NCBI GenBank assembly: GCA_028066595.1
Contig: JALCBJ010000027.1
Coordinates: 1-64,000, forward strand
DNA length: 64,000 nucleotides
Direction of reading: 5' to 3'
Origin: Thermoanaerobaculia bacterium
GTDB taxonomy: Bacteria > Acidobacteriota > Thermoanaerobaculia > Multivoradales > J023
Shown: positions 7,888 through 32,100 of the stretch, piece by piece
How positions within the stretch are numbered: position 1 is the stretch's first letter
Layout: every line of letters begins with the position of its first letter
Program-made: the position numbers and the translations under genes
Notes under the pieces: generated by a model
What the model was told of the DNA's origin: nothing
What the model saw: only the letters and a program-made list of their open reading frames with translations
The model's database searches: none

Positions 7888-7951
7888 GCACGGGAGGGAG
7901 GCGGACCCGGCGATGTTCCGACTCCCCACTGTGGTAGGCGGCTGATCTCAG

Positions 7952-14200: not shown

Positions 14201-14610
14201 AGCGTGGAGCGCATCGCGAGCAAGAGCTGTTGAAACGAGGCGTGCGGTTCGATGTTGGAGCAGATCGCCAGGGCGTTGACGTGGTCACCGACCAGGCGTG
14301 CGGGACTTCCGACGCATACCTGCGAAGTCCGCAGGTGAGGCTGCAAGCTGACGGATAGGGCGGTCATCAAGGTGGTGTAGCTCAGAAAGCTGCCGCCGTT
14401 GGTCAGCCTCTGTAGGCGTCGGTAGAGATCTCCATCGATTTGCCATCGCAGCTCCCCTCGGCGCTCGCCATGAGCTTCGGAGGGAGCGAAGTCACAGATC
14501 AGCGAAGATCGGGACTGACGGCCGGAAAGGCGCTCTCGCCAGTACTCGCGTTCTTGGTACAGACCACGGTCGAAGGTGGGTGGTCGCCGCGTGGCTCCTT
14601 GGCTGATCAT
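11266..14610 (-). CDS. Terminal NRPS module: half-C-A(Tyr)-T-TE
   Basis: Last assembly-line protein (1114 residues), adding the final residue and releasing the product. Residues 15-240 are only the C-terminal lobe of a condensation domain, with no HHxxxDG. The A domain (about 265-755) has YTSGTTGRPKG at 413-423, and its pocket residues read D-A-S-T-I-A-A-V-C-K, very close to the published tyrosine code. The carrier serine is Ser798 in LGGTSLAA. The thioesterase (about 855-1114) has GWSFGG with nucleophile Ser928 and a late histidine in GGNHQTM. The ATG at 14610 overlaps the radical SAM stop as ATGA; a longer open frame upstream is only an overlap artefact. The missing N-lobe suggests that the C domain ending the protein encoded at 17047-21831 makes this peptide bond. 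Release by hydrolysis or macrocyclisation cannot be told. Confidence 0.93.
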   Translation of the reverse strand: MISQGATRRPPTFDRGLYQEREYWRERLSGRQSRSSLICDFAPSEAHGERRGELRWQIDGDLYRRLQRLTNGGSFLSYTTLMTALSVSLQPHLRTSQVCVGSPARLVGDHVNALAICSNIEPHASFQQLLLAMRSTLLDAYSHQLIPYEQVLDALGARLGDRPFFELTVRLEGLHSELPEVGAAIEIDLEEETDHIDGRARFDRGLYRESTIGDLVASWQEVLNAGLTAPTAELRRLDLIGARARQRLSSWASDSVTEPPQESFPARFEARVEQCPDAPAVVTEDELISYSELDRRANQLAHELIRRGVGPESLVGISMTRGATSAVLAILGVLKAGGAFLPLDPEYPWHRLAFMVADSGLRLVLTDSHTSPAFASSGVETLDLDREWALVARHRPRRPPGELKHGQAAYVIYTSGTTGRPKGALLTHGGLVNLAEAQSRAFQVESDSRVLQFASMSFDAAVSEIVMALVVGAALHLGSRDQLLPGAKLTTTLRERRITHATIPPSSLELLRAADVPDLAVLIVAGEVCAPRLAAEWSRNRMFLDAYGPTETTVCATIAYQPDHDARLSIGRPMENVRVYLCDPQTSLVAPGAPGEIYVGGICLARGYVGRPATTAEAFVPDPHSGELGGRLYRTGDLARLRADGELDFLGRIDHQVKIRGYRIEPAEIETALVDQSGVVQAVVAPRDLPSGEPALVGYFVPEPGKEVATASLREALALRLPQYMVPAAFVALEHLPKTPSGKIDREALPAPDWSERAATTVPPRSNIEVILAGIWEEVLERSQISVHDSFFDLGGTSLAAVRMMAIVKEVLGVDLPLTELFQATTIEQLALLIQAKRGTRHWSPMVTIRGRGTAEPLYCVHPGGGNVVCYWQLASHLNGDRPIFALEARGLAHGQEPQESLEAMADLYIEAIRARRPRGPYALLGWSFGGVAAFEMARKLEAAGEQISFLGMLDSYSPWVVDSPSHRQDDSDVLVALVGGVLEVGARELRQLGEEERLHYVIEEAKKKDVIPPSFDVDKARRMLRVAKNNFAAVERYRPPSYGGRIHLYRAEEERDFATTITDLEDLGWAELCRGLVTRFVGGNHQTMTQVPHVDQLAASLEADLDAAVSEAS

Positions 14611-17027
14611 GGGTTGGAGGTACCCGTCGAGGCCAGGTCGAAGCTGAACGCCGCCTCGGCGTCGAGGGCGACCGCGGCCTCCACCGCGAGCTGTTGGTCG
14701 AGGCTCGCTCGCGACACCGGCTCGGTGCCGTCGGCCCAGTGGCTCAAAATTCGGCAGGTCTCCCGGCCGAGCTCGGTCATGTCGGCAAGATGTCGCTGCG
14801 CGGGATCGAAGCCGATCGTCAGCTCGGGTCGCTCGGTAGAGCCACCGATCGTCAACTCGATGCTGATCTGCCGGGCAATCCCGGGTGCGTCGTGGTCCAG
14901 ACGCTCGCGACTCGGTGACGACTCCCCGTCGCGATGGACGCAGACCATGGTGTCGAAACGCGGCGGGTCGTCGCCGCGCCACGCGAGCCAGGCTGGATCC
15001 TGCAGACAGGCGAGAGCAAAAGGTCGGTGCTCCTCGAAGGACGCCAGCTCCTCGTGCATCGAGTGGAGGACCCGATCCGGATCGAGCCGCGAGACCTCGA
15101 GCTGAAGTGGCGCCAGCTCGCCGACCTCGCCACTGGCAGAGATCGGTGACAGCAAGGTCAGCTCGGAGCGACCCTGCCACCGGGCCAAGGCGGCGGCGAA
15201 CGCGGCGACGATCACGTCCGGCTGTTTCCACCTCGTGTCGAGGTCACCAGCTGCCGGCCACTGGACTTGCTCACTCGACCAGCCCGGTTCACCGATGGCG
15301 TCGTTCCGGGTTGTGGTGTTCTTTGCCGGCCTGGAGCCGTACGTGGACCAAAATTCTCGGGCGGCGCTATAGCGACCTGGCCACCAGAGATCGGAAGTCG
15401 TGAGGCCCGGACGGTGCTCGTGGTCGGTGCCGAACTGCGAGCACCTCTCGAGATCGCCCAGCAGGGCAGGCCGTTCGGAATGGCGCCGGTGAAACAAGAG
15501 ATTCTCCCGCACCACGGTGTTGAACGAGGCGACGAAGTCCATCACTTGCTGCCAGCTCATTCCCTGCCGTTGCAAGTAGAAGGTGCTCCATTGCTCGAAG
15601 CCCCATTGTGGTAGCCAGCACGACCCCTCCACGGACAGGAAGAGGTCGTCGATCACCGCGCACGCCGTGGCGGCATCCATGGTCGCGTGGGACCAGTTGA
15701 AGGCCGAGCCCTCGATGTCGTAGCGCTCCCGCTGTTGCCAGATCGGCGTCATCGGATCGCAGTACCAAAGCTGCGCTCGAAAGAAGTCGGGCTGGCCGGT
15801 CTCGAGGAGGTCTCGGGTCTCCTCGACCGTTTCCATGGTCTCGCCGGGAAAGCCGATGATGAGGCTGGCGTAGGTCGAGATCCCGGCCTCCCTGAGCCGC
15901 GGAAGAGCCGCGAGATAGTGCTGGCGGCGTGCGGTTTTGTTCATCCGCTTCAGCATCGTGTCGCTACCGGACTCGATCCCGAGGAACACACCCTCGCAGC
16001 CGGCTTGGCCCATGAGATCGATGATCTCGGCACTACCGTGGTCACTTCGATAGAAGCTATTCCATCGAAAGCCGTAGTCGTTGCGGATCATCATCTCGAG
16101 GATGGCGCGAAAGCGTTTCGGCGGCACGTTGAAGGTGTCGTCGAGGAACGTGAGCGTGTTGACGGTTCCGAGATCTCGGATCGCGTCGAGCTCGCGTTCC
16201 ACCGCCTCGACCGACTCGAAGACATATTTCCCGGCCCGTTGCGGAAAGCCGCAGAATGAGCAGGAGAAGGGGCAGGACTTGGCAGTGCGCAACGAGATCA
16301 TCTGACCCACGTCGGCGGGCGGGAAGAGCGACAGGTCCGGCTGGTTGTCCTCCAGGGAATTGACCTCGGGCTCGCATCCGGTGCGCGTGAACCGACCATC
16401 GATTCGGTAGGCGATATTCGGTACGGAGGAGAGATCTTGGCCGCCGCGCAAGGCTTTCAACAGCCGCGCGAGGGTCGCCTCGCCTTCCTGATTGATCACG
16501 TAGTAGTCGCCGCCGAGGTAACCGAAAAGCCGGGCCAACGTCGCTTCGTCATTGGTTCCGGACTGGTTGGCGATGAAAGGGCCACCGATGATCACGGGCA
16601 CCGACGGGTCGTGCTGACGGACGAAGGAAACGATCTCCGAGATCGGTGCCGGGGAGACATAGAAGGTCGTGAGGATCGCCACCGTACGGACCGAGCCGGT
16701 CGCCAGCTTGTCGGCCAGGCGATCCTTTTCGAGCTGGAAGGCATTGACGTAGTCGAAGCTCAGACCCTGGCGAGACAAGTAGGTGCCGAGATAGGCGATT
16801 CCCGGTGACAGGAAGTCTGTATTGTGAAACTGCTTCTCTCCGGACGCCCGGTGGTAGTGACTGAGCGCGTCGAGCGCGCGCATCGGCCTGCCGTCGACCT
16901 CGACGAAGGCCAGGCGTAGATCCCGATAGGCTCCGGCATCCCCAGATCGGACCATCTCTACATAGCTTTGGAAGTCCGAGTCGTTGTGGCCGATCAGCAG
17001 GCAATCTACGTTCGTTGCTTCGCTCAC
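14607..17027 (-). CDS. B12-binding radical SAM (PhpK-like) fused to a C-terminal half-condensation domain
   Basis: Protein of 806 residues. Residues about 1-200 form a cobalamin-binding domain, with the opening VDCLLIGHNDSDFQSYVEM typical of PhpK-like enzymes from biosynthetic clusters. The radical SAM cluster motif is Cys252-x3-Cys256-x2-Cys259 (CPFSCSFCGF). This family methylates unactivated carbon or phosphorus centres, so a C-methylation of the peptide or a precursor is likely. About 250 further residues, beyond the usual ~550, match the C-terminal lobe of an NRPS condensation domain (pattern VIVAAFAAALARWQGRSELT and a late RFDTMVCVHR strand) without any active-site histidines. The GTG start at 17027 has an excellent AAGGAG. 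It sits between two NRPS genes, and the tail may dock it to the assembly line. The methylated position is unknown. Confidence 0.87.
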   Translation of the reverse strand: MSEATNVDCLLIGHNDSDFQSYVEMVRSGDAGAYRDLRLAFVEVDGRPMRALDALSHYHRASGEKQFHNTDFLSPGIAYLGTYLSRQGLSFDYVNAFQLEKDRLADKLATGSVRTVAILTTFYVSPAPISEIVSFVRQHDPSVPVIIGGPFIANQSGTNDEATLARLFGYLGGDYYVINQEGEATLARLLKALRGGQDLSSVPNIAYRIDGRFTRTGCEPEVNSLEDNQPDLSLFPPADVGQMISLRTAKSCPFSCSFCGFPQRAGKYVFESVEAVERELDAIRDLGTVNTLTFLDDTFNVPPKRFRAILEMMIRNDYGFRWNSFYRSDHGSAEIIDLMGQAGCEGVFLGIESGSDTMLKRMNKTARRQHYLAALPRLREAGISTYASLIIGFPGETMETVEETRDLLETGQPDFFRAQLWYCDPMTPIWQQRERYDIEGSAFNWSHATMDAATACAVIDDLFLSVEGSCWLPQWGFEQWSTFYLQRQGMSWQQVMDFVASFNTVVRENLLFHRRHSERPALLGDLERCSQFGTDHEHRPGLTTSDLWWPGRYSAAREFWSTYGSRPAKNTTTRNDAIGEPGWSSEQVQWPAAGDLDTRWKQPDVIVAAFAAALARWQGRSELTLLSPISASGEVGELAPLQLEVSRLDPDRVLHSMHEELASFEEHRPFALACLQDPAWLAWRGDDPPRFDTMVCVHRDGESSPSRERLDHDAPGIARQISIELTIGGSTERPELTIGFDPAQRHLADMTELGRETCRILSHWADGTEPVSRASLDQQLAVEAAVALDAEAAFSFDLASTGTSNP

Positions 17028-17035
17028 GGACTTTT

Positions 17036-17041
17036 CTCCTT
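17036..17041 (-). promoter_or_regulatory. Strong ribosome-binding site that fixes the radical SAM start
   Basis: AAGGAG on the minus strand lies 8 nt before the GTG at 17027. It supports that start over an upstream in-frame codon inside the preceding NRPS gene and is the best Shine-Dalgarno in the operon. Confidence 0.75.
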
Positions 17042-17046
17042 GCAGG

Positions 17047-20000
17047 TCAGAACCGGAATGCCTCGACCAAGTCGCCGGCCAGAGTCTCCGGAGGTGGCGC
17101 CGGAGCCTGGGGCAGACCGAAGTCGACATCGAGCAACCGTTGCTCCGGCCGGTCGGCGAGGACCTCCAGTAGCAGCAGGAAGCGGTCTCTCATCTCGATG
17201 ATCGTCGAGGGATCGAAGAGATCGCTGTCATAGGCCAGCGATCCCGCGATGCCTCGGTCGTGTTCTTCGAGTGCCATCAGCAGGTCGTAGCCGAGATGGC
17301 CGGCATAGGTCGAATATGGCTCGAGATCGAGATCGCCCAGACGCAACCGGGACCGGGTCTTGCTCTGCAGGGTCATTGCGACCTGTGCGATCGGATGGCG
17401 GTGCGGTTGGCGCTCGGGGAGGAGGTTGCCGACCACCAGATCGAACGGCAGATCCTGATGGGAATATGCCTCGATGGCAGTCTTTCGCGTCCTGCCGAGC
17501 AACTCGTCGAAGGACGGATCTCCAGTCAGATCCAGGCGCAGTGCCACCACGTTGGCGAAGGTGCCGATCAGAGGCTCGACCTGAGGGTGACTTCGATTGG
17601 CCACCGGGCACGCGATGATCTGATCTTCGTTGCCGGTGTAGCGGTAGAGAAGACAAGAGAATGCTGCCAGGAGAGCCATGTAGAGACTGGCACCGTGCTC
17701 CCGGGTACGCTCCTGGAGCCGGGTGGTCAGGTCGGTGTCGAGCTGCAGCTCGATGCAGTCGCTGCGCAGACTCGGCACGGTCGGACGAGGTCGATCCAGG
17801 GGCAGAGGCGCCAGCGGCGGAGCTCCGGTGAGTCGGTGGCACCAATACTCGAGCTGACCCTCGAGAACCCCGCCGACTTGTTGGCGCTGCCAGTGCGAGT
17901 AGTCGGCATATTGCACCTCCAGCTCGCTCAGGGGCGACGGCAGGGCGGTGACGAAGGCGCCATAGAGCGCGGAGAGCTCGGTGGTGATCACATCCACGGA
18001 CCAGCCGTCCGAGATGATGTGGTGCATCACCACGATCAGCACGTGATCGCGCGCCGAGCATCGGACCAGGCAGAGCCTCAGCAAGGGTCCCGTCGCGAGA
18101 TCGAAGGGCTTTCGGATCTCTTCGTCGATGAGCCGCTCGATCCAGCGTGTCTGGAGCCCAGCACCGGATGCCGACAGGTCGATGAGCCGAAGCGCGGGAC
18201 GGCTGGCGGTAGCGACGAGCTGTACCGGTGTCCCACGTTCATCGTGGAAGGTCGTGCGGAGCGACTCATGCCGGCGGACGATCTCCACCAGCGATTGGTG
18301 AAGCGACTCGAGGTGTAGCCTGCCGTGGAGCCGGAGAGCTGCGGGCATACTGTGGTTCGAGGTTCCGGCCGACATCCGTTCCAAAGTCCACATCCGCTCC
18401 TGGGCAAACGAGAGGCGCCGTCGGTCACCATCCGACGCCGTGGTGATCGGCGTCACAGCGGCTCTCTCGTTCTGTCGGAGCTGCCGGCTGAGGGCGGCGA
18501 TGGTCGGACATTCGAAGAGATCGCGCAGCGACACTTCGGCACCGGTTCGACCGCGGATCCTGCTCAGAAGCCGGGCGGCTAGCAGCGAATGACCGCCCAG
18601 GTCGAAGAAGTCGTCGTCGATGCCGAGCGTCGGCACATCGAGGATCTCGCGCCAGAGATCTACGAGGAGCGATTCCAGTGGATCTCGTGGCGCTCGGGAG
18701 CGATCCTGCGGACTCCGCGGGCCGGGATCCGGCAGCGCGCGACGGTTGATCTTGCCGCTCGGAGTCTTGGGAAACTCCTCGAGCAGGACGAAGGCTTTGG
18801 GCAGCATGTACTCCGGAAGCAGCCCACGCAGGTGACGAGCCAGCTCCTCCTCGTCCGGTCGCGAGCTCTTCGACACGACGTAGGCGACAAGGTACGGCCC
18901 GGTGGTCGAATCGCGCTTGGGCACCACTACCGCCTGCGTGATCCCCGGGAAGTCCATGAGAGTGGCCTCGATCTCCCCGGGCTCGACCCGGTAGCCACGG
19001 ATCTTGACCTGATGATCGATGCGACCGAGGAACTGGAGCGAACCGTCGTCCGACCTCCGGCACAGATCGCCGGAGCGGTAGAGCCGGTCGCCGGGGCGTG
19101 CGCCGAACGGATCCGGCAAGAAACGAGCCGCCGTCTGTGCCGGCCGGTGGACGTAGCCCCGACCCAGGATGTCGCCGCCGAGCACGAGCTCGCCGTCGAG
19201 GCCTGGGGACGACAATCTCAGAAAGCCACTGGTGACATGGGCGCGTGCGCCTTCGATCGGTCGGCCGATCGAGGGCAAGTGGGGCCAATCGGCGGGTTCT
19301 CCGCGTAGCGGATGGAACGTAGCGAGGTGCGTCTCGGAGGGGCCGTAGTGATTGTCCAGCGTCGTGACGTTTCGGCTCAGGACCGCTCGAATCGCCGGCG
19401 TCATCTGCAACTGTTCGCCGGCTGTGTAAAGGTGCCGAAGAGTCGGTGGCATCCCGATCGCGGCCGCTTCCTCTGCCAGCTGCTGGAGCGCCACGAACGG
19501 CAGAAACATGCGTTCCACCGCGGTCTCGTGCAGGAGTCTCAGCAGCTCGACCGGATCTCGCCGGATCTCGTCGGAGATCAGATGCAGCGCTCCGCCCTCG
19601 ACCCAGGTGGAGAAAGTCTCCTGCATGAAGACGTCGAAGCTCATCGGTGCGAACTGGAGCGTGCCGCGTGGTGGTGGATCGGTCTGCCCAGCCTGCCAAA
19701 AGGCGAGGTTGCGGAGCGTCCGATCGGGGATCGCGACGCCCTTCGGCTCACCGGTGGAGCCCGAGGTATAGACGATGTACGCGAGCTGGTCCGGAAGCGC
19801 CGGACGATGGTGGGTGGAGACCGCCGGACGCCCGGCGGCGTACGGCCGGCCTCGCTCGAGCCAGAGGAGCGCGGTCGCCGAGTCCTGCGCGGCTTCACAC
19901 TCGCGGCTGGCAAGAATCAACGTCAGACCGCAGTCGCGCTCGAGGAAAGCGCGCCGCTCGGCGGGGTAGGCAGGGTCGATGGGCACCAGCACGCCGCCGG

Positions 20001-21831
20001 CGAGGTGGATCGCGAGCACGGCGATCAGCGTTTCCGGAGCACGCACCGTGTAGACACCCACTGCCACCTCGGGCCCGACTCCGCGGTTCCGAAGCTCACG
20101 GGCCAGCGCCTGGGCCTCGACCACCATCGTACGGTAGGTGAGCGCACCTCCCCGCCATTCCAGTGCAACGGCATCCGGTTGTCGGCGGGCATGCTCGACG
20201 ATGCGATCGGCCACGGTCATTCGTCGTACGTCGCCGGCCGTCTCCGCGGCAGCTCGGGGACGGAGCTCCTGATTCCACACCGAAGCTTCGAGGCGGTGCT
20301 GCTGCTCTCCGACCAGCTCGAGATCGTCGATTCGCTGTTCGGGTTGCCGCGCGAGTGTCTCCACGACGTTCAGAAATCCGGCGGCCAGAGCTTCGATCGT
20401 GCTCGGCTCGAAGAGCCCGGCTTCGTATTCCAGATGTCCGCGGACACCTGCGGCGGTCTGTTCCAAGGACAGTGTGAGATCGAACTTCGCCTCACCGTTG
20501 ACGAGGGGCAAGGGCTCGAAGCTCAGCTCCGAGGTCGGCAATGCACGCTCGACCCCCAGGCGGTTCTGGAAGGCGAACATGACCTGGAAGAGTGGATTGC
20601 GGTCGAGGGAGCGCTCGGGTCGGACCGCTTCGATCACTCGTTCGAAGGGCACGTCTTGGTGATCTTGGGCCGCCACGACGGTCCGTCCGACGTGTCGCGT
20701 CAGACCGGCGAGAGTCGAGCCACCCTGAAGCTCCAAGCGGAGGGCGAGGGTGTTGGTGAAGAAACCGACGAGCGCCTCGGTTTCGCGGCGGTTGCGATTG
20801 GCGATCGGTGTGCCGATCACGAGGTCGTCCTGGCGGGACGACCGTGCGAGGAGCGCGACGAAGGCGGCGAGCAAGCCGCTGTACAGCGTCGTTCCCAAGG
20901 CGCGGCAGCGATCCTCGAGGTGCGTGACTTGCTGCGAATCGAGCTGGATCGAGCGATAGCCCGCGGCGGATCCCGCCTCGTGACGATGTTCGAGCCTCGG
21001 CAGATCCAGGGACTCGGGTGCGCCCTGCAGATGTTGACGCCAGAAGTCGAGCTGACGTTCGAAGCGCTTTGCTGTGCCGTCGCTTCGCTGCCAGCGGGCA
21101 AAGTCTGTGTACTGGATCGGTAGGGGTGGGGAGGCGGCCGGCCTACCTGTGGAGTAGGCGTCGAGCCCGTTCGTCATTTCGGTCTGCAACAAGCCGACGG
21201 ACCAGCCGTCGGCCACGATGTGGTGGAGGCAGAGGCCGAGGATCCGGTCGGTGGGGCCCAGGTCGATCAGGAACGATCGCAGCAATGGACCGTGCTCGAG
21301 GTCGAAGGCCCGCCGGGCGCCTTGGTCGAGAACCTGTTGGGCGACCTGCTCGCGCCGCTCGGCGGGGAGTCGGCTCAGGTCGATGCGCAGCATCGGCATC
21401 GACGCCGTGGCTCGCATCTGAGTCGGCGTCTCGTCGACTTCTCGGATCACAGTCCGCAGAACTTGGTGCCGCCGACGGATCTCTGCGAGCGACTGCTCGA
21501 GAGCCGAGGTGCCGAGCGGACCGCGAACACGATGCGCCGAGGGTACGTTGTAGACGGCACGGTCGCCGTCGAGACGACGGAGGAACCAGAGACGTTGCTG
21601 AGAGAACGAGAGCGGTGCCGGCGATCCATCCCTGCACGCGTGGATCGGCTCGTCGGAGGCTGACTTCGAGGCAAGTAGCTCGAGCATGGGAGCCTTGTGA
21701 CTCTTGAGCTCCGCCAGCAGATCGGCGGTCATCGCGCCCGGCGGGGCACTGAAACGGAGCGCTTCGCCGTCTGCCCAGAGGCGGACCTCTCTCGCGCGCA
21801 GGCGGCCGAGCAAGTCGCGGATCGCGCTCAC
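17047..21831 (-). CDS. NRPS: docking-C-A(Pro/methylproline)-T-C
   Basis: Protein of 1594 residues. Residues 1-55 are a TubC-type beta-hairpin docking domain. The first C domain (about 74-515) has an LCL-type opening LSFSQQRLWFL and HHIVADG at 203-209. The A domain (about 530-1035) has YTSGSTGEPKG, and its pocket reads D-V-Q-F-Y-A-H-L-A-K, which belongs to the proline group (DVQxxAHxx). The carrier serine in LGGHSLLAA is near 1081. A second LCL-type C domain (about 1137-1594, HHIISDG) ends the protein and should join the prolyl chain to the tyrosine on the last module. The pocket fits free proline or the 4-methylproline implied by the plus-strand genes. The GTG start overlaps the upstream stop (GTGA). 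The stop lies 19 nt before the radical SAM start. Confidence 0.93.
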   Translation of the reverse strand: MSAIRDLLGRLRAREVRLWADGEALRFSAPPGAMTADLLAELKSHKAPMLELLASKSASDEPIHACRDGSPAPLSFSQQRLWFLRRLDGDRAVYNVPSAHRVRGPLGTSALEQSLAEIRRRHQVLRTVIREVDETPTQMRATASMPMLRIDLSRLPAERREQVAQQVLDQGARRAFDLEHGPLLRSFLIDLGPTDRILGLCLHHIVADGWSVGLLQTEMTNGLDAYSTGRPAASPPLPIQYTDFARWQRSDGTAKRFERQLDFWRQHLQGAPESLDLPRLEHRHEAGSAAGYRSIQLDSQQVTHLEDRCRALGTTLYSGLLAAFVALLARSSRQDDLVIGTPIANRNRRETEALVGFFTNTLALRLELQGGSTLAGLTRHVGRTVVAAQDHQDVPFERVIEAVRPERSLDRNPLFQVMFAFQNRLGVERALPTSELSFEPLPLVNGEAKFDLTLSLEQTAAGVRGHLEYEAGLFEPSTIEALAAGFLNVVETLARQPEQRIDDLELVGEQQHRLEASVWNQELRPRAAAETAGDVRRMTVADRIVEHARRQPDAVALEWRGGALTYRTMVVEAQALARELRNRGVGPEVAVGVYTVRAPETLIAVLAIHLAGGVLVPIDPAYPAERRAFLERDCGLTLILASRECEAAQDSATALLWLERGRPYAAGRPAVSTHHRPALPDQLAYIVYTSGSTGEPKGVAIPDRTLRNLAFWQAGQTDPPPRGTLQFAPMSFDVFMQETFSTWVEGGALHLISDEIRRDPVELLRLLHETAVERMFLPFVALQQLAEEAAAIGMPPTLRHLYTAGEQLQMTPAIRAVLSRNVTTLDNHYGPSETHLATFHPLRGEPADWPHLPSIGRPIEGARAHVTSGFLRLSSPGLDGELVLGGDILGRGYVHRPAQTAARFLPDPFGARPGDRLYRSGDLCRRSDDGSLQFLGRIDHQVKIRGYRVEPGEIEATLMDFPGITQAVVVPKRDSTTGPYLVAYVVSKSSRPDEEELARHLRGLLPEYMLPKAFVLLEEFPKTPSGKINRRALPDPGPRSPQDRSRAPRDPLESLLVDLWREILDVPTLGIDDDFFDLGGHSLLAARLLSRIRGRTGAEVSLRDLFECPTIAALSRQLRQNERAAVTPITTASDGDRRRLSFAQERMWTLERMSAGTSNHSMPAALRLHGRLHLESLHQSLVEIVRRHESLRTTFHDERGTPVQLVATASRPALRLIDLSASGAGLQTRWIERLIDEEIRKPFDLATGPLLRLCLVRCSARDHVLIVVMHHIISDGWSVDVITTELSALYGAFVTALPSPLSELEVQYADYSHWQRQQVGGVLEGQLEYWCHRLTGAPPLAPLPLDRPRPTVPSLRSDCIELQLDTDLTTRLQERTREHGASLYMALLAAFSCLLYRYTGNEDQIIACPVANRSHPQVEPLIGTFANVVALRLDLTGDPSFDELLGRTRKTAIEAYSHQDLPFDLVVGNLLPERQPHRHPIAQVAMTLQSKTRSRLRLGDLDLEPYSTYAGHLGYDLLMALEEHDRGIAGSLAYDSDLFDPSTIIEMRDRFLLLLEVLADRPEQRLLDVDFGLPQAPAPPPETLAGDLVEAFRF

Positions 21832-24800
21832 AGCACTCCCTCTTCGAGAATCTCGTCACCGCTGGGCTGCGGCGGCTGGCTGGCGACGCTTTCGAGGTCG
21901 TCGATGACAGCACCCAGGCTTCGAACCGTCGGGTTCTCGACGATCAGTTGCATCGGAAGCAGCAGCGAGAACACGTCGCGCAGACGAGAGATCACCTGCG
22001 TGGCCATGAGTGAGTGGCCCCCGAGCTCGAAGAAATCGTCGCCGACATCGAGTTGGTCGATTCCGAGCACTTCTGTCCAGACCCGCGCCACTTTTCGTTC
22101 GGTGGCGCTGTTGGGCGGCCCTTCGACACGTCGGCGGGCTGGTTTCCCGGGCTCTGGCAAGGAGGCCAGGTCGATCTTGCCCCGAGAGTTCAGAGGGATG
22201 TCGTCGAGGTACACCAACCGTTCCGGCACCATGTGACTCGGCAGCACATCCGCCAGCTGGGTGCGCAGGTAGAGCTGATCGAGGCCGAATCCGCTGCCGG
22301 AGCTGGCGGTCTTCGGCTTGGCGCGCTCCGGGCTCCCGCTGTAGTAGGCCACGAGCTCCTGCTGACGCCGGTTCGTTGGCCGATAACCGATCTGCACGAG
22401 AATGTCCTCGACCCGCGCGGCGTCGATGTCGTCGTCGAGCTCGTCGACCGCTTCACTCCAGGTCTTGTGGCCCAGGCGCACATCCCAGGAGTAGGGCAGG
22501 GCATAGTTGTGAAAGCCCCTCTCCCGTTTGTGCACGCTGATCCCGACATCGTTGATCAGGCAGTTGGTCGAGCGGCCGGTATCCGATGGCCGGATCCACG
22601 GTGCATGCTCCGCTAGATACCGGATCATCTCGCCGAGCTCAGCCTCGCTGTAGCGGTAGAAGTCCACAAACCGGACCTCGTCGAAGATCGAGTCGTCGGC
22701 GAACAGATCTCCGGCGAGGTGCTCGGCGCAGGCGTCGGCTTCGCGGTGATAGGCCTTGCGCGCGTCGTGCACGGTTTGATCGATCTCGGCCGGCTCCCAG
22801 ACCCCCACTCGATGCAGCTCGGCGAGGCGAGTCTCGAAGATCTGACCGCGGGAGAGGCCGGTCACGATGTATCGAATGCCGCGTTCGCGCGCCAACCTCA
22901 TGCCGAGGGTGTAGATCGTCTTGAAGCAGCCGTTGCAGACGTTGCTGAAGCGCTGCAAACTGTCGCGGAAGATCTCGTCCATGTGTGGCGTCGTGGCCAC
23001 GTGATGCTCGACGCCCAGGTGGTCGGTGACGCGGCGGATATTGGCCAAAGTCTGCTCGGATAGGAATCCGTTGTCGAGGGTGAAGACCAGCACGTTGAGC
23101 CCGAGCTCCGCCACCAGCTGGTAGAGGGCGTAGGTGCTGTCCTTGCCACCGCTGTAGAGCATGATGCAGTCGTGGCGGGGCGCGGTCGCCCGCTGCTCGA
23201 AGAGTGCTTCCAGTTCTTCGAACGGGCGAAAGTACTCGGCGGCACGATGCCGATGGCGTTCGTACTCGTGACAGATCGTGCATACGCCATCGTCTTCGAA
23301 CGTCGCCATCGGATGCTCGGACGACAGGCCGCAGCGTGCACATCGGAGGACCTCGTCGTCCACCGCCGCGCCGCGGAGGGTCACCACGCATTGCTCGACG
23401 CCTTCGACCTCGCCGAGGGCCTGCTCGATCTCCGCCGGATCGACACGGAATCCCTGGATCTTCAGCTCTCGGTCGATCCTGCCTCGGAACTCGAGCTGGC
23501 CATCGGGCCGGAGGAGGGCGCGGTCACCCGAGAGATATCGTCGCTCTCCCGTCGCGAGGGGGTCGGGCAGGAAGCGCTCGGCGGTCAGACGCGGATGGCC
23601 GAGGTAGCCGCGAGCCACACCAGCACCGGCGATGAGCAGCTCCCCGGTGACGCCATCGGGCACGGGCTCGAGCCGCCCATCGACGACGCAGAGGGTCGTG
23701 TTGTCGATCGGTCCGCCGATGGCCACTGCGGCGCGCTGATCGGATTCGGAGTCGAAGCGGTGGAGGGCGCAACCTACGACGCATTCCGTTGGCCCGTACT
23801 CGTTGAAGATCGCGGCGCCCACCGGCAGAGCTGCAGTCACCTCGCGGGCTAGATCGGTCGGGAACTGCTCACCACCGACGATCAGGCGCGAGAGCCGGCG
23901 ACCGGGCGACGCTTGGGCGAGCAGGCGGAGATGGGACGGTGTGACCTTGAGCACGTCGACCCGATCGTCCTCCACGACGGTCAGAACCTCGAGGTCGGCG
24001 GATGTCGATCGCCGTTCGTAGACTTCGAGCGTCCCTCCGGTGATCAGCGGTAGGAAGAGAGATGTGACCGTGAGGTCGAAGGACAGCGACGAGCAGAGCG
24101 CGAAGCTGGTCTCGGCGTCGATCGAGTAGGCGGAGCGAGCCCAGAACAGGTAGTTCATCAGCCCGCCGTGGGTGACCATCACTCCCTTCGGACGACCGGT
24201 GGAACCGGAGGTGTAGAGCACGTAGGCGAGCTCGCCAGGCACGATGTTGCGCCGTGGGGTTGCCGGTCGTCGCCGTGAGTCAGGAATCGTCCGCGGATCG
24301 ATCTCGACCACATGGCCGTGCCACTCGAGGTCCGAGATTCGTGCGAGCTGATTTCGGGTCGTCACCACGGCTGACGCACCGCTTTCCGCGAGGAGCGTCG
24401 TGATCCGAGCGTCGGGGTCGCCGGGATCGATAGGCACGTAGGCGGCACCGGCCTCGAGTACGCCCAGTATGGCCACAACGGCGGAAACCGAGCGCGGCAG
24501 TAGCACCGCGACCACGTCGCAGCGGGCGACTCCGGCCTCCGCCAACTGATGGGACACGGCATCCGCCCACCTCGCTGTTTCCCGAAAGCTCAGCTGGTGG
24601 TCCCGACCTCGTAGCACGAGCCTGTCGGGATTCTCGACGGCCCGTTGCCGGAAGAGATCGACGACGGTTTCAGCAGCACGAGGCCGATGGGTAGCCTGCC
24701 GCTGCGCTTCCAGCCGGTGGCGCTCGGACGGGGAGAGAAGCGACAAGGTGCTCAGTGCCCGTTCGGGAGCGTCCGTAGCAGCGCGTAGCAGGATCTCCAG

Positions 24801-27800
24801 GTGACGACACAGCCGAGCGGCGGTGGCGGCGTCGAAGAGGTCGCGATTGAACAGCAGCTCACCCTCGAGCCCGTCATCGCGCTCCTGGAAATAGAGCTCC
24901 AGATCGAAGCGGACGGGAACTTCTGCGGCCGCCGCGACGGGCGTCAGACGGACCCTCTCCATTTCGACCTCGTCGAACGGCTGGTTGTGCAGCACCACGA
25001 TGGCCTGGACGAGAGGGAAATGGCTGGCGACGCGCGTCGGGGAGATCTCTTCGACGACACGTTCGAACGGCAGCTCTTGGTGGCTGTATGCGTCGACCGT
25101 CGTCGTGCGCACCCGCCGGACCAGAGCGGCAAAGTCTGGATTTCCGTGGAGGTCGATGCGCAGCGCCAACGTATTGACGAAGAAGCCGATCATCGCTTCG
25201 GTATCGCGATGGCCACGGTTGGCGATCAGCGAGCCCAGGACGATGTCTCGATCGCCGCTGTATCGGCCGAGGAGGGCTGCGAAACCGGCGACGAGGGTCA
25301 TGTAGAGACTCGCCTGATGGGCGCGTGCCACCCTGTGGAGGGCGGCGGTCAGCTCGGCATCCAGCCGGAAGCAGTGCCGGGCACCACGTGTGGATTGGAT
25401 CGCCGGCCGCGGCCGATCCAGTGGCAGTTGGGTCAGCTGCGGCGCGCCCTCAAGCTGACGACGCCAGTAGGCGAGGTGACTCTCGGCCTCGCCTCGTTCG
25501 AACCTTCGACGCTGCCAGGCCGCGTAGTCGACGTACTGCGCCGAAAGATCCGGCAGTGGCGATGGCTCGCCCCGTGCCATCGCCTCGTGAAGCGCCGCGA
25601 TCTCGCGGGTCAGGACCCCGGTCGACCAACCGTCCGAGGCGATGTGATGCATCACCAGGACGAGGAGATGATCGTTGGTGTCGAACCTGGCGAGAACGGT
25701 CCGTAGAAGCGGTCCACGCTCGAGATCGAACCCGTGAGCCGACGTGTCGGTGATCACGTCCTCGGCCGCCACCTCCCGGTCGGCTGCAGCCAGCGAGGAT
25801 AGATCGATCCGCGTCAGCGAGAAGGCCTGGTGGCGGAGGATCGTCTGGGCGGGGGCACCGTCGTGTATTGCGAAGGTCGTGCGCAGAGATTCGTGACGGC
25901 GGACGATTTCGGCAAGCGATTGCTCGAGCGCTTGCCACGAAACGCTGCCTTCGAGCCGCACCGCCAGGGTGACGTTGTAGGCCCGACCGGACCCTTGTAG
26001 CTGCTCCAAAGTCCACATCCGCTCCTGGGCGAAGGAAAGAGGCAGATGGTGAGAGCGCTCGGCGCGGGGCAAGTGGCCTTCCGCCACCGTCGCGGCCCGT
26101 TGATCGAGCACGTCAGCCAGAAGAGCGATCCTCGGATTCTCGAAGAGCTCGCGCAGCGGCAGCGACGCGTCGAGCTCGGAAGAGATTCGGGATACCAAGC
26201 GGGTCGCCAGCAGGGAGTGGCCGCCCAGATCGAAGAAATCGTCCTCGATGCTCACGGGTCGTCGCTGGAGCACGTCTTGCCAGATATCGACCAGATTGCG
26301 TTCCGTCTCCGTGCGCGGTGCGACGAAAGGGGCCGATCTCGCGGCGGAATCGGGCGCCGGCAAGGCATGCCGATCGATCTTTCCGCTCGCCATGGTCGGC
26401 AACTCGGACAAGGTCAGGAACTCCGACGGAACCATGTAGGCAGGTAGCTTTTGCCGGAGTCGGAGTCGAAGCTCCGAGAAATCCGGTGAGTCGGCGTTTG
26501 TCGGTACCAGGTAGGCCACTAGGCGGTCGCCGTCTCCGCGGGTGACGGCGGCCTGTGCGACGCTCGCATCGGCGAGCAACGCCGTCTCGATTTCGCCCGG
26601 CTCGACCCGGAAGCCCCGGACCTTGAGCTGCTCGTCCAGGCGTCCGGCGAAGACGATGCGACCGTCATCGAGGTGGCGTCCCAGATCGCCTGTGCGATAG
26701 AGACGCTGTCCAGGTTCGTCACCTAGCTCGTCGGGGACGAATCGGTCGGCGGTCAGCCCAGGGCGCCGGTGGTAGCCCCGGCCGACCGCGAGACCGCCGA
26801 TCCACATCTCTCCGGCCATTCCCGGCGCGACCGGTTCGCCGAGCTCGTCTACCAGGTAGATCCGGCAGCGGCGCAAAGGTTTCCCGATGGGTGGCTCGAA
26901 GGGTTGGCCGGGCCGGCACTCGTCACTCGATACACAGACCGTGGTCTCCGTCGGTCCATAGAAGTTGACCAGCCTCGTCTCTTCGGGCCAGCCCTCTGCC
27001 AGGTGGCTGGGACAGGCCTCGCCACCGGTGTGCACGGTATGCAGGGATCGCGGTAGTGGGCGCGGCAGGACCTCCAGGGCCGATGGCGTCAAGAAGAGCG
27101 AGGTGATCCTTCGCTCCCGCAGACTGGCAGCGAGCTCGGCTCCGGGACGTGCCGTCTCGTCGTCCACGAAGTGCAAGGTGGCTCCGGAAGCGAGCGTTCG
27201 AGCGACTTCCCACACGGACGCGTCGAAGCTGATCGACGCAAGCAGGAGAACTCGGTCGCCCGGGCGGAGGCCCGAGCTCTCGGCCGTATGGAGCGCGAGA
27301 TTGGCCAGTGGCTCGTGGGTCAACAGGGCGCCCTTCGGTCGTCCGGTCGAGCCCGATGTGTAGATCATGTACGCGAGATTGCCCGGGGCGAGCCGCACCC
27401 GCGGCGCGGTCTGCGGCCGTTTCATCCAATCGCGATCGGTGTCCAGAGTCAGGACCGGCATGTCGAGACCCGCGAGGCCTTCGACGGAAGTCTCCTCCGT
27501 GAGGATCAGGGCAACACCGGCATCCTTCGCCAGAGCGGTGAGGCGCTCCGCCGGCAGGCTCGGGTCGAGGGGGACGTAGCAGCCGCCGGCCTTCCATATC
27601 GCGCAGATGCCCAGCAGAAGACGCCGGCCTTTTTTCGTCGCCAAACCGACGCGATCTTCCCGGCCGATGCCGCGGTGGATGAGCTCCCGAGCGAGCTGGT
27701 TGGCGCGCCGATCGAGCGCGCCATAGGAGAGCGATCCTTCCACGTCGGTAACCGCGACCGCGTCGGGCCTCGTCGTCGCGTGATGCTGTAGCAGCTCCGA

Positions 27801-29189
27801 GAGGAGCGTAGGTTCGGGCTCCGGTGAGGCGTGGTCTGTCGGGCGATTCCACTCGACCACGACTCGCGACCTGTCCGCGGGTGTCAACCATGGGATTCGA
27901 TCCGGACTCGTCTCCGGCGAATCCAACAGGCCTCGAAGCAGCGTCCCGTAGGCGGTCGCCGCCTCTTGCATCAGGCCGTCGAGGTATCGGCTCCGATCGA
28001 AGCGCAGTGCCACGCGAGTCCGATCCGCCGGCTGGATGACCAGCTCCAGGTCGTAATGCGACCGTTCTGTCACCCGGACCGACTCCACCGCGACACCCGA
28101 GCCGGCGGCACCCGCGGCCCGGCGCAGGCCTTCGTCGATCGGGAATCCCTCGAACGCGAAGATCGGCTCGACGGGAGGATGCCCGCGCTGGATCTCGGCC
28201 AGGCCCAAGGTCTGGAACGGCTGACGGTCGACGGATTCGCGGTGCAGGCGCCGGATCAGGCTCTCCGTCGAGTCTGCGGGGCTCCAGCGGACGCGCCGCG
28301 GCAAGGTCGTGATGAACAACCCCACCATGTTGTCGATGCCCTGTAGCTCCGGAGGACGGCCCGAAGCGACCGAGCCGAAGACGACATCGCGCCGCCTCAA
28401 GGAGCGGCCGAGCAGGATCCCCCAGGCGGCCTCGAGACAGGTGCTGGGCGAGGTGCCGACCCGTGCAGCCAGCTCCTCGAGGCGCCGACCGTCCGCCGAG
28501 GAGAGCTCGAATCCGACCTCGCCGAGCTCGCCCGCTGCCTCCCGGCGCATAGGGCTGGGCAGCCTCGAGGACTCGGTGTATCCCGTCAAATAGTCGCGCC
28601 AATAGTCCCGCGCTGGCTGTTGCTCGCGATCCTCGAGCCATGAGATGAAGCGCGAGTATGGTTGTACGATCCCGAGATCCGCCGTCGTCCCCCGGCACTC
28701 GGCCTCGATCCATCGCATCATCTCCGAGAAAAGAAGGCCCGCGCTCCAGCCGTCGAGCAGGATGTGATGGAACGTGAACACCAAGCGCAACTGGTCGGCG
28801 GCATCAATTCCCAGATGCACCCGCCACGGTGGTTCTCTCGTGTCGAGTTCGAATCCACGGCTCTGGTCGTGGGCCAGCCAGTCAGCCCAGCCCGCGTCCG
28901 TATCCAGGGCTAGCCTCGGAAGCTCGGCGATGATCGGTGACGTTTCCCGCAGTACCGCCTGAAACGGACGGGTGAGTCGCTGAACGAAGACCGAACGCAG
29001 GATCTCGTGCCGCTTTGCCAGCGTGGACCACGCCCTGGCCATCGGTTCCGGTGTTTCGAGGCCGGAGAGGCGAGCCTCCACTTGGACGCAGTAGAGAGAA
29101 CGATCGTCGCTGAGGTTGGCCTGGAACAACAGGCCCTCCTGCATCGGCGACAGAGGGTAGAGATCCGCCAGGTTGGCGCGCGGAATCAT
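21828..29189 (-). CDS. NRPS: C-A-T-C-A(Asn, interrupted by PP-loop domain)-T
   Basis: Bimodular NRPS of 2453 residues. It opens with a COM-like MIPRANLADLYPLSPMQEG and a C domain of the DCL type (HHILLDG), fitting the epimerase at the end of the upstream protein. The first A domain (about 470-940) has pocket D-A-W-F-H-G-F-V-C, which I cannot assign. T1 serine is near 991. The second C (about 1045-1480) has HHIASDG. The second A domain (from about 1500) has pocket D-L-T-K-I-G-E-V-G, nearly identical to the published Asn code. Its C-terminal subdomain is split at about 1945-2277 by a zinc-ribbon/PP-loop ATP-pyrophosphatase, after which A9/A10 motifs (LPSHMVP, NSRGKID) resume. T2 serine is near 2394, and the tail ends in an acidic EILEEGVL. 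The ATG at 29189 overlaps the upstream stop. Confidence 0.95.
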   Translation of the reverse strand: MIPRANLADLYPLSPMQEGLLFQANLSDDRSLYCVQVEARLSGLETPEPMARAWSTLAKRHEILRSVFVQRLTRPFQAVLRETSPIIAELPRLALDTDAGWADWLAHDQSRGFELDTREPPWRVHLGIDAADQLRLVFTFHHILLDGWSAGLLFSEMMRWIEAECRGTTADLGIVQPYSRFISWLEDREQQPARDYWRDYLTGYTESSRLPSPMRREAAGELGEVGFELSSADGRRLEELAARVGTSPSTCLEAAWGILLGRSLRRRDVVFGSVASGRPPELQGIDNMVGLFITTLPRRVRWSPADSTESLIRRLHRESVDRQPFQTLGLAEIQRGHPPVEPIFAFEGFPIDEGLRRAAGAAGSGVAVESVRVTERSHYDLELVIQPADRTRVALRFDRSRYLDGLMQEAATAYGTLLRGLLDSPETSPDRIPWLTPADRSRVVVEWNRPTDHASPEPEPTLLSELLQHHATTRPDAVAVTDVEGSLSYGALDRRANQLARELIHRGIGREDRVGLATKKGRRLLLGICAIWKAGGCYVPLDPSLPAERLTALAKDAGVALILTEETSVEGLAGLDMPVLTLDTDRDWMKRPQTAPRVRLAPGNLAYMIYTSGSTGRPKGALLTHEPLANLALHTAESSGLRPGDRVLLLASISFDASVWEVARTLASGATLHFVDDETARPGAELAASLRERRITSLFLTPSALEVLPRPLPRSLHTVHTGGEACPSHLAEGWPEETRLVNFYGPTETTVCVSSDECRPGQPFEPPIGKPLRRCRIYLVDELGEPVAPGMAGEMWIGGLAVGRGYHRRPGLTADRFVPDELGDEPGQRLYRTGDLGRHLDDGRIVFAGRLDEQLKVRGFRVEPGEIETALLADASVAQAAVTRGDGDRLVAYLVPTNADSPDFSELRLRLRQKLPAYMVPSEFLTLSELPTMASGKIDRHALPAPDSAARSAPFVAPRTETERNLVDIWQDVLQRRPVSIEDDFFDLGGHSLLATRLVSRISSELDASLPLRELFENPRIALLADVLDQRAATVAEGHLPRAERSHHLPLSFAQERMWTLEQLQGSGRAYNVTLAVRLEGSVSWQALEQSLAEIVRRHESLRTTFAIHDGAPAQTILRHQAFSLTRIDLSSLAAADREVAAEDVITDTSAHGFDLERGPLLRTVLARFDTNDHLLVLVMHHIASDGWSTGVLTREIAALHEAMARGEPSPLPDLSAQYVDYAAWQRRRFERGEAESHLAYWRRQLEGAPQLTQLPLDRPRPAIQSTRGARHCFRLDAELTAALHRVARAHQASLYMTLVAGFAALLGRYSGDRDIVLGSLIANRGHRDTEAMIGFFVNTLALRIDLHGNPDFAALVRRVRTTTVDAYSHQELPFERVVEEISPTRVASHFPLVQAIVVLHNQPFDEVEMERVRLTPVAAAAEVPVRFDLELYFQERDDGLEGELLFNRDLFDAATAARLCRHLEILLRAATDAPERALSTLSLLSPSERHRLEAQRQATHRPRAAETVVDLFRQRAVENPDRLVLRGRDHQLSFRETARWADAVSHQLAEAGVARCDVVAVLLPRSVSAVVAILGVLEAGAAYVPIDPGDPDARITTLLAESGASAVVTTRNQLARISDLEWHGHVVEIDPRTIPDSRRRPATPRRNIVPGELAYVLYTSGSTGRPKGVMVTHGGLMNYLFWARSAYSIDAETSFALCSSLSFDLTVTSLFLPLITGGTLEVYERRSTSADLEVLTVVEDDRVDVLKVTPSHLRLLAQASPGRRLSRLIVGGEQFPTDLAREVTAALPVGAAIFNEYGPTECVVGCALHRFDSESDQRAAVAIGGPIDNTTLCVVDGRLEPVPDGVTGELLIAGAGVARGYLGHPRLTAERFLPDPLATGERRYLSGDRALLRPDGQLEFRGRIDRELKIQGFRVDPAEIEQALGEVEGVEQCVVTLRGAAVDDEVLRCARCGLSSEHPMATFEDDGVCTICHEYERHRHRAAEYFRPFEELEALFEQRATAPRHDCIMLYSGGKDSTYALYQLVAELGLNVLVFTLDNGFLSEQTLANIRRVTDHLGVEHHVATTPHMDEIFRDSLQRFSNVCNGCFKTIYTLGMRLARERGIRYIVTGLSRGQIFETRLAELHRVGVWEPAEIDQTVHDARKAYHREADACAEHLAGDLFADDSIFDEVRFVDFYRYSEAELGEMIRYLAEHAPWIRPSDTGRSTNCLINDVGISVHKRERGFHNYALPYSWDVRLGHKTWSEAVDELDDDIDAARVEDILVQIGYRPTNRRQQELVAYYSGSPERAKPKTASSGSGFGLDQLYLRTQLADVLPSHMVPERLVYLDDIPLNSRGKIDLASLPEPGKPARRRVEGPPNSATERKVARVWTEVLGIDQLDVGDDFFELGGHSLMATQVISRLRDVFSLLLPMQLIVENPTVRSLGAVIDDLESVASQPPQPSGDEILEEGVL
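22350..23345 (-). other. N-type PP-loop ATP-pyrophosphatase domain embedded in the Asn adenylation domain
   Basis: About 330 residues (1945-2277 of the NRPS encoded at 21828-29189) lie between A8 (KIQGFRVDPAEIE) and the strand before A9. They carry a four-cysteine zinc ribbon (Cys1950, 1953, 1970, 1973), the PP-loop SGGKDS at 2013-2018 and a further CxxC pair (Cys2085, 2088 in NVCNGCF). The arrangement matches N-acetyl sugar amidotransferases of the WbpG type. Enzymes of this fold adenylate a carbonyl oxygen and replace it with nitrogen or sulfur. In an Asn/Asp-selecting domain it could amidate Asp, make a thioamide, or dehydrate an amide to a nitrile. Which of these occurs is inference. The frame is open throughout and both flanks are intact, so it is not a broken gene. 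Confidence 0.85.
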
Positions 29190-32100
29190 GAAGTGATGCC
29201 CTCGAGCTCTTCCAGGCTGATCCCTGAGTACGTCAGATCGGCGGGCGTCACTTCGGGGTGCAAACGGCCACTGCAATGATCGATGACTTCGCCGATCGAA
29301 TCGCGCAGCGCGACGAGCAGCGCCTCCGTGCGGTGGCGGGAGAATCGGTGGCGGCTGTAGCCGATCTCCAGGAAGAGCCGTCCGCGGAGCACCGCGGCTC
29401 CGATATCCAGCTCGGTGGGCCGGGGGCTGTTGCCGTCGACGGAATCGCCGACGGGCTCCGACACCATGATCAGATCGCCGACGGTCATGGAAGCGTCGAA
29501 ATCGCCCAGATAGTTGAAGCTGGTGAGCGGTGCTGCGGGCTGGCTGCTTTCAGCGTTCAACAAGCCGTAGCCGAGACCGCGGTCGGGCACCGAGCGCAGT
29601 GCCTCCTTGATCGACTTGATCTGAAAGCCGAGGTCCTGGCCGGCGGGCAGCTCGAGTTGAAAAGGAAACCTCGTGGTGAACCAGCCGACGGTGCGCTCGA
29701 CCGGCAGGCCACTCGGCTGCTCGCCGAGGTCCTCACGTCCGTGTCGTTCGAGCACGATGACGCTGGACTTGGCGTCGGCCCAGATCTCCAGCGCGCGCGC
29801 CAGAGCTGTGAGAAGCAGATCCTCGGCGGTGGTCGAGTACGCGGCATTCGCCTTGACTCGCAGCAGATCGGTGCGCTCCTTCGATAGCTCGGTGCTGATC
29901 TGCTCCAGATCACGATAGCGGTTCGAGCCCTGCGGGTCGTCAGGACTGATGGCGACCGAATGTCCCTCGACCGCTTCCCAGTACTCCGCCTGCCGGCGGA
30001 TCGATGGGGAAGATGCGAGCTCGCCGAGCCTGGCTGCCCAGCTGCCGTAGGTTGCCGTCGACGGCGGCAAGGCGATCGGCCTCCCGTCCACTGCCTGCCG
30101 ATAGGCGGCGACGAAGTCATCCAGCAGGATGCGCCACGACGTACCGTCGATCACCAGGTGGTGGCCGACGAACAGGAGCCGATCACCGCGCGGATGGCGG
30201 AAGAGCGCAGCCTTGAACAACGGACCTTCCTCGAGGCGCAAGCTACCTTGGGTGCGGTGGGCGTGGCGTTCGAGCGCCCGCAGGGGATCTTGGTCCGGCT
30301 CGAGCTCCACCTCCTCGACGACGCACTCGAGCTCGACTTCCACCCGGCCGATCCAGCCGTCTCGAGTCTTGTGGAAGGTCGTCCGAAGAGCCGGATGTCG
30401 GGCGAACAGTCCGTTGATCGCCAGCTGGCAGGCGTTGGCCTCGAAGCCCACGCGATGTACAAAGAGCAAGGCTTGGTTGAAATGCTGTGGGCAGTGCTCG
30501 AAGTGGCGGAAGAACCAGCGCTGGATGGGTGCCAGGGGCTGCGGACCCTCGAGCGGCACGTCGGTGCGCTGCCGCGCCAGCCTCTTCAGTCGCGGTGTGA
30601 GCTCGGCAACGGTGGGATGAAGGAATAGATCCTGGACCCCGAGGCCGAGGTCGTGCTCGAGCAGACGCGACACCACCTGGATCGCCTTGATCGAGTCTCC
30701 ACCGAGGGCAAAGTAGTTGTCGTGGATCCCGACACGATCTCTACCGAGAACCGCGCCCCAAGCTTCGGCCACGGTTTGCTCGACAGCATTCCGCGGCGCC
30801 GCGAATTCGCTGCCGAGATCCAGATCCTCGACCTCGAGGGCTGCGAGGGCGCGCCTGTCGACCTTGCCGGACGAAGTCAGAGCGAGGGCCTGATGGCGAA
30901 GGAACCTGGAGGGAACCATGTACTCGGGAAGACACTCCAGCAAGCTGCCGCGCAGCAGCTCGACACTCAGCGAGCGATCGCCAGCGAAGTGCGCGATCAG
31001 CGAGCCTCCACCATCTCCTTCGGGATCGAACCGCACCGCCGCCTGTCGTACACCTTCGATCTCGAGGAGCGCGGCCTCGATCTCGCCAGGCTCGATGCGA
31101 AAGCCCCGGACCTTGATCTGATCGTCGATGCGGCCGCAGTAGATGAGATCTCCGTCGGTGAGCTTGGCGCGGTCACCGGAGTGGTAGAGGCGTTCGGAGT
31201 CGGCGAACGGATGAGGGCCGAATCGCTGAGCGGTGAGGCCAGGCTGACCGGTGTAACCGCGGGCGACGCCGGCCCCGGCGACGCAGATCTCCGCCGGTGT
31301 CCCTTGCGGCACGAGCTCGCCTCGGCGATCGAGTAGCAGGGTCGCCAGGGTCGGGATCGGCCGTCCGACGTTGGATAGATTGGCCGCGATCTCAGCGCCG
31401 CCGATTTCTTTGAACGTGACATGCACGGTCGTCTCCGTGATGCCATACATGTTGATCAGACGTGTGGACGGATAGCGCCGGGCAAACGACGCGAGGATCA
31501 CCGGCTTGAGCGCTTCTCCTCCGAAGATGAGGTATCGAAGCTCCAGCAGAGAGGGCAGGGTGTGCTCGCGGTCCGCCAGACCCGTGAACGCCGACGGTGT
31601 CTGGTTCAAGATCGTGACGCGTTCGAAGGTCAAGACGGCGAGGAGGGAATCGACGTCCCGAACGATCGGTCGTGGCACGATGACCAGTCGCGCTCCCGTG
31701 AGCAATGCGCCGTAGATCTCCCAGACCGAGAAGTCGAAGCTCGGCGAATGCACCAGCGCCCATCGGTCGTGCGTCGTGAAGTCGAAGAGGGGGCGATCGG
31801 TGGTGAGCAGACGAAGCACGTGTCGGTGCTCGACGACGACACCCTTGGGTCGGCCGGTGGAACCGGATGTGAAGATTACGTAGGCGGCCTGTCCCGGTGC
31901 CGGTCCGCTCCTGAGGTTGCCCGTGTTGGCGTCGGATGACTGGGTCGAGTGTGCTCCGAGCGTCATCGTTTTGACCGCCAACCCGTCCAAAACCGCCTTC
32001 ACGCCGGGCTCGATGAGCACGATCCCGGCGCCCGAGGCCTCGATCAGATACTCGACCCGTTCCTGCGGATACTCGGGATCGATGGGTACGTAGCAGCCGC

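Follow-up and report, generated by a model that had tools for sequence, protein, structure and literature searches.

Adenylation (A) domains of nonribosomal peptide synthetases (NRPSs) may be interrupted by a second domain, and the inserts catalogued in reviews of such enzymes are methyltransferases, monooxygenases, oxidases and reductases, with no PP-loop domain among them (PMC11355689, PMC8949500). Where the insert is a methyltransferase, it acts on the carrier-bound residue (PMC11355689). Chemistry by PP-loop enzymes on carrier-bound substrates is known separately: CtaC (residues D77/S78, C154, C157 and C284), described in 2019 as the first nonribosomal thioamide synthetase, thioamidates backbone amides of a peptide held on a carrier protein (PMC6772006). 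Among other PP-loop enzymes, LarE from Thermotoga (LarE-Tm) has a Cys triad, C92/C95/C172, that binds a [4Fe-4S] cluster, is required for sulfur transfer and has a sulfide-carrier role (PMC9283937), and enzymes of the ArtA/NitB type dehydrate amides to nitriles (PMC13060819). Here, we describe a PP-loop domain within an A domain with an Asn-type pocket. It resembles the known interrupted A domains (KtzH and TioS with a methyltransferase, others with Ox or KR) in that a domain, probably catalytic, occupies the A8–A9 loop of a seemingly active A domain and would act on the loaded residue (PMC11355689, PMC8949500).

The window, a 64,000-nt stretch of a Thermoanaerobaculia bacterium contig (JALCBJ010000027.1), carries the host gene on its minus strand, in an ORF (21828–29276) with the domain order C-A-PCP-C-A(insert)-PCP. 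With the TTG start picked by the ORF finder this ORF encodes 2482 aa, and the ATG at 29189, which overlaps the stop of the upstream gene by 4 bases, is probably the natural start (NRPS gene 21828–29189, 2453 aa). The N-terminal part of the interrupted A domain, through A8, spans 23424–24749 (minus strand, as are all features of this gene), and its C-terminal end past the insert, with the strand LVAYY, A9 and A10 (SRGKID), spans 22164–22380. The PCP that follows (21831–22160), whose LGGHS motif contains the phosphopantetheine-site Ser, is the expected carrier of the modified Asn. A8 (RIDRELKIQGFRVDPAEIE, aa 1933–1951) lies N-terminal to the insert and both A9 (VPERLVY, aa 2350) and A10 (SRGKI, aa 2364) lie C-terminal to it, leaving the A core motifs intact, as is typical of an interrupted A domain. 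A model of the whole A-PCP unit (mean pLDDT 85, pTM 0.68) likewise puts the insert between two strands of the C-terminal subdomain, aa 1960–1968 and 2307–2314. The pocket reads D-L-T-K-I-G-E-V-G(-K), which differs from the textbook Asn code, DLTKLGEVGK, by a single conservative substitution; the Asp code, DLTKVGHIGK, has His where the Asn code has Glu. Judged by its code, the interrupted domain selects Asn, not Asp, as the free amino acid. The preliminary description of this DNA had placed a PP-loop domain between A8 and A9 of an A domain with an Asn pocket and had suggested predicting the structure of the full A domain; motif positions, code and model all agree with that placement.

The insert itself (C1979–Y2298, ~320 residues, 22383–23342) combines a zinc-ribbon-like CxxC..CxxC, an SGGKDS motif and a further CxxC..C. 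Its two CxxC knuckles, C1979/C1982 and C1999/C2002 (23262–23342), form a predicted zinc ribbon, a feature in common with the sugar amidotransferase family WbuX. The PP-loop SGGKDS (aa 2042–2047, 23136–23153) is followed by CNGC, with C2114/C2117 (22926–22937) as the first two of three predicted [4Fe-4S] ligands, and by C2239 within DTGRSTNC (22560–22562) as the third. Counted from the PP-loop, the CxxC pairs fall at about –63, –43 and +71/72, and the last Cys at +196/197. The NRPS ORF runs without interruption across the entire insert; in an alignment of 59 homologous inserts (54–62% identity; the Streptomyces locus L099 is left out) all seven Cys and SGGKDS are invariant, and AlphaFold2 folds the insert alone with confidence (pLDDT 94.1, pTM 0.92). 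On these three grounds the insert is a genuine domain and chance is excluded, and the strict conservation of its PP-loop and of every Cys argues that it is probably catalytic. The initial reading had noted all three CxxC pairs and the SGGKDS but overlooked the seventh invariant Cys, C2239; its worry that the PP-loop might be unable to fold is allayed by the confident model.

How widespread is this arrangement? A single scan across 84,980 species genomes returned 304 candidate loci; the proposal to search for other A domains with the same insert has borne fruit. By record titles they span about 16 phyla, among them Acidobacteriota, Cyanobacteriota, Pseudomonadota, Bacteroidota, Verrucomicrobiota, Chloroflexota, Gemmatimonadota, Actinomycetota, Planctomycetota and Myxococcota; a second copy, 59% identical, lies on another contig of the window's own genome. 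In the 80 loci that were retrieved, a strict regular expression found the A core and A8 upstream of the insert in 64, and at least one of the two motifs was present in 11 more; the remaining loci end at a contig edge (four) or are broken by a run of N (one). Wherever the contig permits the test, apart from the detached variant L099, the insert sits in an A domain. Two further apparent exceptions were rejected, L024 as a frameshift and L046 as an N-masked scaffold. The catalytic Lys of A10 is invariant in 39 aligned hosts, and the A code directly upstream of the insert is of the Asn type in each of the 67 loci where it can be read. Among the other A domains of the data set this code occurs in 2 of 82, namely the window's own and one in a frameshifted host, which leaves none with it among the ~80 remaining A domains of these loci. 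A tree built from inserts, free-standing kin and WbuX places the inserts in one clade (support 98/99). The domain is, in sum, real, conserved and widespread.

The true variant, on a plasmid of Streptomyces sp. NBC_01216 (L099:10062-14112), carries its PP-loop domain outside any A domain, as a fusion with a condensation-like domain; next to it lie asnB and an entire A-PCP protein with a pocket that seems not to be of the Asn type, and the PP-loop protein is possibly a trans-acting version. Free-standing relatives of ~360 aa with a CxxC...C at +84 and +204 (L134:6151-7230 and L133:2347-3468) are sister to the insert clade; the former adjoins an asparagine-synthase-like gene in an apparent surface-polysaccharide locus.

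With respect to ancestry, WbuX is the family nearest to the insert by HMM, profile and fold. It is the best NCBIfam match (1.1e-31 for the window insert, 1e-38 for a Microvirga member), even though the three members scored, at 111–134 bits, do not reach the curated cut-off of 203 bits; hhalign aligns the insert with bona fide WbuX at 99.8% over 281 columns, and among solved structures the closest is a Legionella N-acetyl sugar amidotransferase (8wex, Z 20.5 over 293 residues), with TtuA, NcsA and [4Fe-4S] LarE next at Z about 12. Given this agreement of HMM, profile and predicted fold, the insert is best read as a branch of the WbuX superfamily, a distant full-length relative, in keeping with the WbpG- or QueC-like kind of enzyme first suggested and with the HMM comparison to sugar amidotransferases proposed as a check. 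The Pfam label 'QueC' (E 8e-5, whole protein) is misleading, since that match covers the ATP-binding half only (72 of 210 positions).

What sets the insert apart from WbuX is the CxxC...C triad. C2114, C2117 and C2239 are invariant in 59 of 59 inserts, all of which combine SGGxDS, CxxC and a distant third Cys, the pattern of Fe-S PP-loop sulfur transferases. All ten WbuX sequences above the curated cut-off have the N-terminal CxxC pairs and none has a CxxC past the PP-loop; conversely, all twelve LarE sequences have a CxxC at +70 and a Cys at +150 and lack the N-terminal pairs. In HHalign the insert's CNGC falls on the cluster CxxC of LarE, in an alignment that does not reach the third Cys, and it does so again against the sequence of the LarE structure 8cnz. 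Counted from its published residue positions, CtaC has its own three Cys at roughly +81/+84/+211 from the PP-loop start, near those of the insert. We thus predict C2114/C2117/C2239 to be a three-Cys [4Fe-4S] motif as in CtaC, TtuA and LarE, and it is chiefly because such a triad occurs in sulfur-inserting enzymes and is absent from WbuX that we favour sulfur over nitrogen as the atom transferred.

What, then, might the insert do? We give about an even chance to thioamidation of the Asn side-chain amide on the assembly line. In this scheme, the A domain would pick and adenylate Asn and load it onto the PCP that comes next. From its place in the A8–A9 loop, where other A domains have a methyltransferase, the PP-loop domain would bind the Asn side chain and adenylylate its carboxamide oxygen with ATP; a sulfide bound to the free iron of a [4Fe-4S] cluster, with C2114, C2117 and C2239 as its ligands, would then take the place of the activated oxygen, yielding thioasparaginyl-S-PCP, a side-chain thioamide. 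The cluster type, sulfur as the nucleophile, the side-chain target and the timing on the PCP are all points that we infer. The side-chain amide is suggested as target by the strict coupling to the Asn code together with kinship to the amide-activating WbuX, whose relatives act on an amide oxygen. Moreover, the hosts in Rhizobiales and in some Gemmatimonadota are ~1000-aa A(PP)-PCP proteins that begin with the A domain and have no C domain; as they need no upstream backbone amide, the target would be the Asn residue itself. Timing on the PCP is assumed by analogy with methyltransferase-interrupted A domains. That the insert edits the side chain of a carrier-bound residue, as first proposed, is therefore probably right, and of the products then named, the triad favours thio-Asn. 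Against thioamidation weighs the fact that the insert is closer in fold and sequence to nitrogen-transferring WbuX (Z 20.5) than to the sulfur transferases (about 12). The neighbours of the insert loci include no recurrent gene dedicated to sulfur supply; the closthioamide cluster likewise lacks one (PMC6772006).

It is this closeness to WbuX that speaks for an amidine instead: as in WbuX/WbpG/PseA, ATP-activated side-chain amide would react with ammonia, giving 3-amidinoalanine on the PCP. HMM (1e-31 to 1e-38), profile and fold all point that way, and asnB-like genes near some insert copies are possible ammonia sources. Yet the triad, invariant in the inserts, is missing from WbuX, and HisH/HisF, the WbuX partners, are absent from the recurrent annotated neighbour families of the insert loci; the one pair seen, in Roseovarius, belongs to a separate WbuX gene and locus. 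We consider amidine synthesis unlikely. Quite doubtful, too, is a mixed set of other outcomes—a thiocarboxylate, a thio-Asn that goes on to cyclise, some other chemistry, or no turnover at all, with the domain in a regulatory or carrier role. The acyl-CoA dehydrogenases, thioesterases and methyltransferases of the clusters could process a product further, but the full conservation of PP-loop and Cys favours catalysis.

Dehydration of the activated side-chain amide, the reaction that ArtA/NitB carry out on other amides, would give beta-cyanoalanine; this nitrile was also among the products first named and is retained here as an improbable rival. ArtA has the PP-loop fold, with a middling structural match to the insert (Z 11.1), and is reported to turn an amide into a nitrile (PMC13060819), a reaction that would need no nitrogen donor; its sequence match is confined to residues 48–93 around the PP-loop (E 0.21), and the invariant Fe-S-type triad would be left unexplained. 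The C(x)8CxxCxxC motif of QueC (PMC13329287) is likewise absent from the insert. We regard as very improbable that the insert follows CtaC to the letter and converts the peptide carbonyl upstream of Asn: the amides that CtaC modifies do lie in the backbone of a peptide on a PCP (PMC6772006), and most hosts, the window's included, have an upstream C domain, but hosts of the type II clusters described below begin with an A domain, and the strict Asn-code coupling favours the side chain. Finally, amidation of Asp to Asn on the line, the first option of the preliminary description, is hardly credible even though PP-loop enzymes, AsnB and GMP synthetase among them, amidate carboxylates or equivalent groups, because by the codes given above a pocket Glu in place of His means that free Asn is taken directly, asnB near some copies would provide Asn anyway, and the triad would be left unexplained.

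Returning to thioamidation of Asn, the loci that would perform it fall into recurring contexts. In the commoner, type I, the PP-loop Asn module is accompanied by a second module whose code, DSALIAEVW, we take to resemble the His code, and by several separate proteins: an A domain that stands alone and has a Pro-like pocket, a free carrier protein, a dehydrogenase close to PigA/prolyl-PCP dehydrogenase, a PPTase and an ornithine-cyclodeaminase-like protein. From this set we infer that the product starts with a pyrrole-2-carboxyl unit and continues with modified Asn. A HupE/UreJ-like membrane protein (PF13795), present in 29 of 45 long-flank clusters (e.g. L016, L020, L036, L043 and L098), hints at a link to metal. 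It is conceivable, albeit rather doubtful, that the type I product is a metal-binding peptide of pyrrole and thioasparagine that is taken up with its metal, a nonribosomal counterpart, across many phyla, of the copper-binding methanobactins. The second copy of the window's genome (L103, G000:C52) lies within a canonical type I cluster, unlike the window's own, larger one. In L016:13053-20966 and L022:11505-17212, the second A domain, with the code DSALIAEVW, is split over two genes at A8–A9, with a methyltransferase gene between the halves, in effect an interrupted domain in separate pieces.

In type II clusters (Rhizobiales, some Gemmatimonadota), the A(PP)-PCP gene is accompanied by a PPTase-like gene and by genes for a thioesterase and an acyl-CoA dehydrogenase. 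Those of Bradyrhizobium, Microvirga and Mesorhizobium (L041, L053, L059, L064 and L079) are compact, consisting of A(PP)-PCP, a thioesterase that has a TubC docking domain, and acyl-CoA dehydrogenases that are 85–96% identical to one another. Acyl-CoA dehydrogenases recur beside insert-bearing modules, and that of the window (10089–11261, minus strand) is ~37% identical to those beside inserts elsewhere. As a fixed Asn-serving partner, this family was rejected: its tree splits a PigA-like (prolyl-PCP) set of type I (n = 33) from distant others in type II and in the window.

The window's cluster is a larger NRPS-PKS with the PP-loop Asn module inside. Consecutive genes for a WelO5-like Fe/2OG oxygenase, a zinc alcohol dehydrogenase and a P5C-reductase-like protein (7078–9888, plus strand) are the set expected for 4-methylproline from leucine, which fits the Pro-like A code DVQFYAHL in 17047–21831, the module after the PP-loop one. 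Among the NRPS genes, a cobalamin-binding radical SAM protein (14607–17129, minus strand), whose ORF overlaps that at 11266–15231, is probably a C-methyltransferase.

If thioamidation holds true, NRPS lines would own a portable in-line module that swaps side-chain oxygen for sulfur (or nitrogen), is bound to a single amino acid and serves lineages as far apart as Cyanobacteria and Rhizobiales. This would constitute a new class of A-domain insert, an engineerable domain, and the source of side-chain thioamides, a product family that predictions from the code would list as plain Asn. With ~300 loci, the spread of nonribosomal thioamide chemistry becomes testable by intact-protein mass shift.

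How does the insert compare with what has been described? In open-licence papers, whose silence is weak evidence of absence, we found no description of a PP-loop, amidotransferase or thioamide domain in an A domain, in agreement with the earlier remark that no characterised PP-loop insertion was known. A 2026 survey of the QueC family does report, in cluster 5 subcluster 1, 'massive multi-domain proteins' of 900–2603 aa, mainly from Flavobacteria, that group with WbpG (PMC13329287); they are neither called NRPSs there nor assigned a function, and they may be the same family as the inserts or another. WbuX/WbpG/PseA (TIGR03573; 8wex) share with the insert full-length homology, zinc-ribbon-like CxxC pairs, SGGxDS and overall fold, but lack the CxxC...C triad, are free-standing, and act on sugars with HisH/HisF as partners. 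[4Fe-4S] LarE (8cnz/8cp4; TIGR00268) shares the CxxC past the PP-loop, aligned with CNGC, and a third Cys, but has no zinc ribbon, places that Cys at +150 instead of +197 and uses a nicotinate-derived carboxylate; the insert scores 32.7 bits, below the family cut-off of 150. The tRNA thiolases TtuA/NcsA share the PP-loop fold (Z about 12) and Fe-S sulfur transfer, but differ in substrate and show weak sequence similarity (E 0.07). CtaC, the Fe-S thioamide synthetase of closthioamide, has, by its published residue positions, the PP-loop and the CxxC with distant Cys in the same order and at similar spacing, as well as a thiotemplated substrate, but is free-standing and acts in trans on a poly-beta-alanine backbone. 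Interrupted A domains and thiotemplated PP-loop chemistry are thus each known, and their combination appears to be new.
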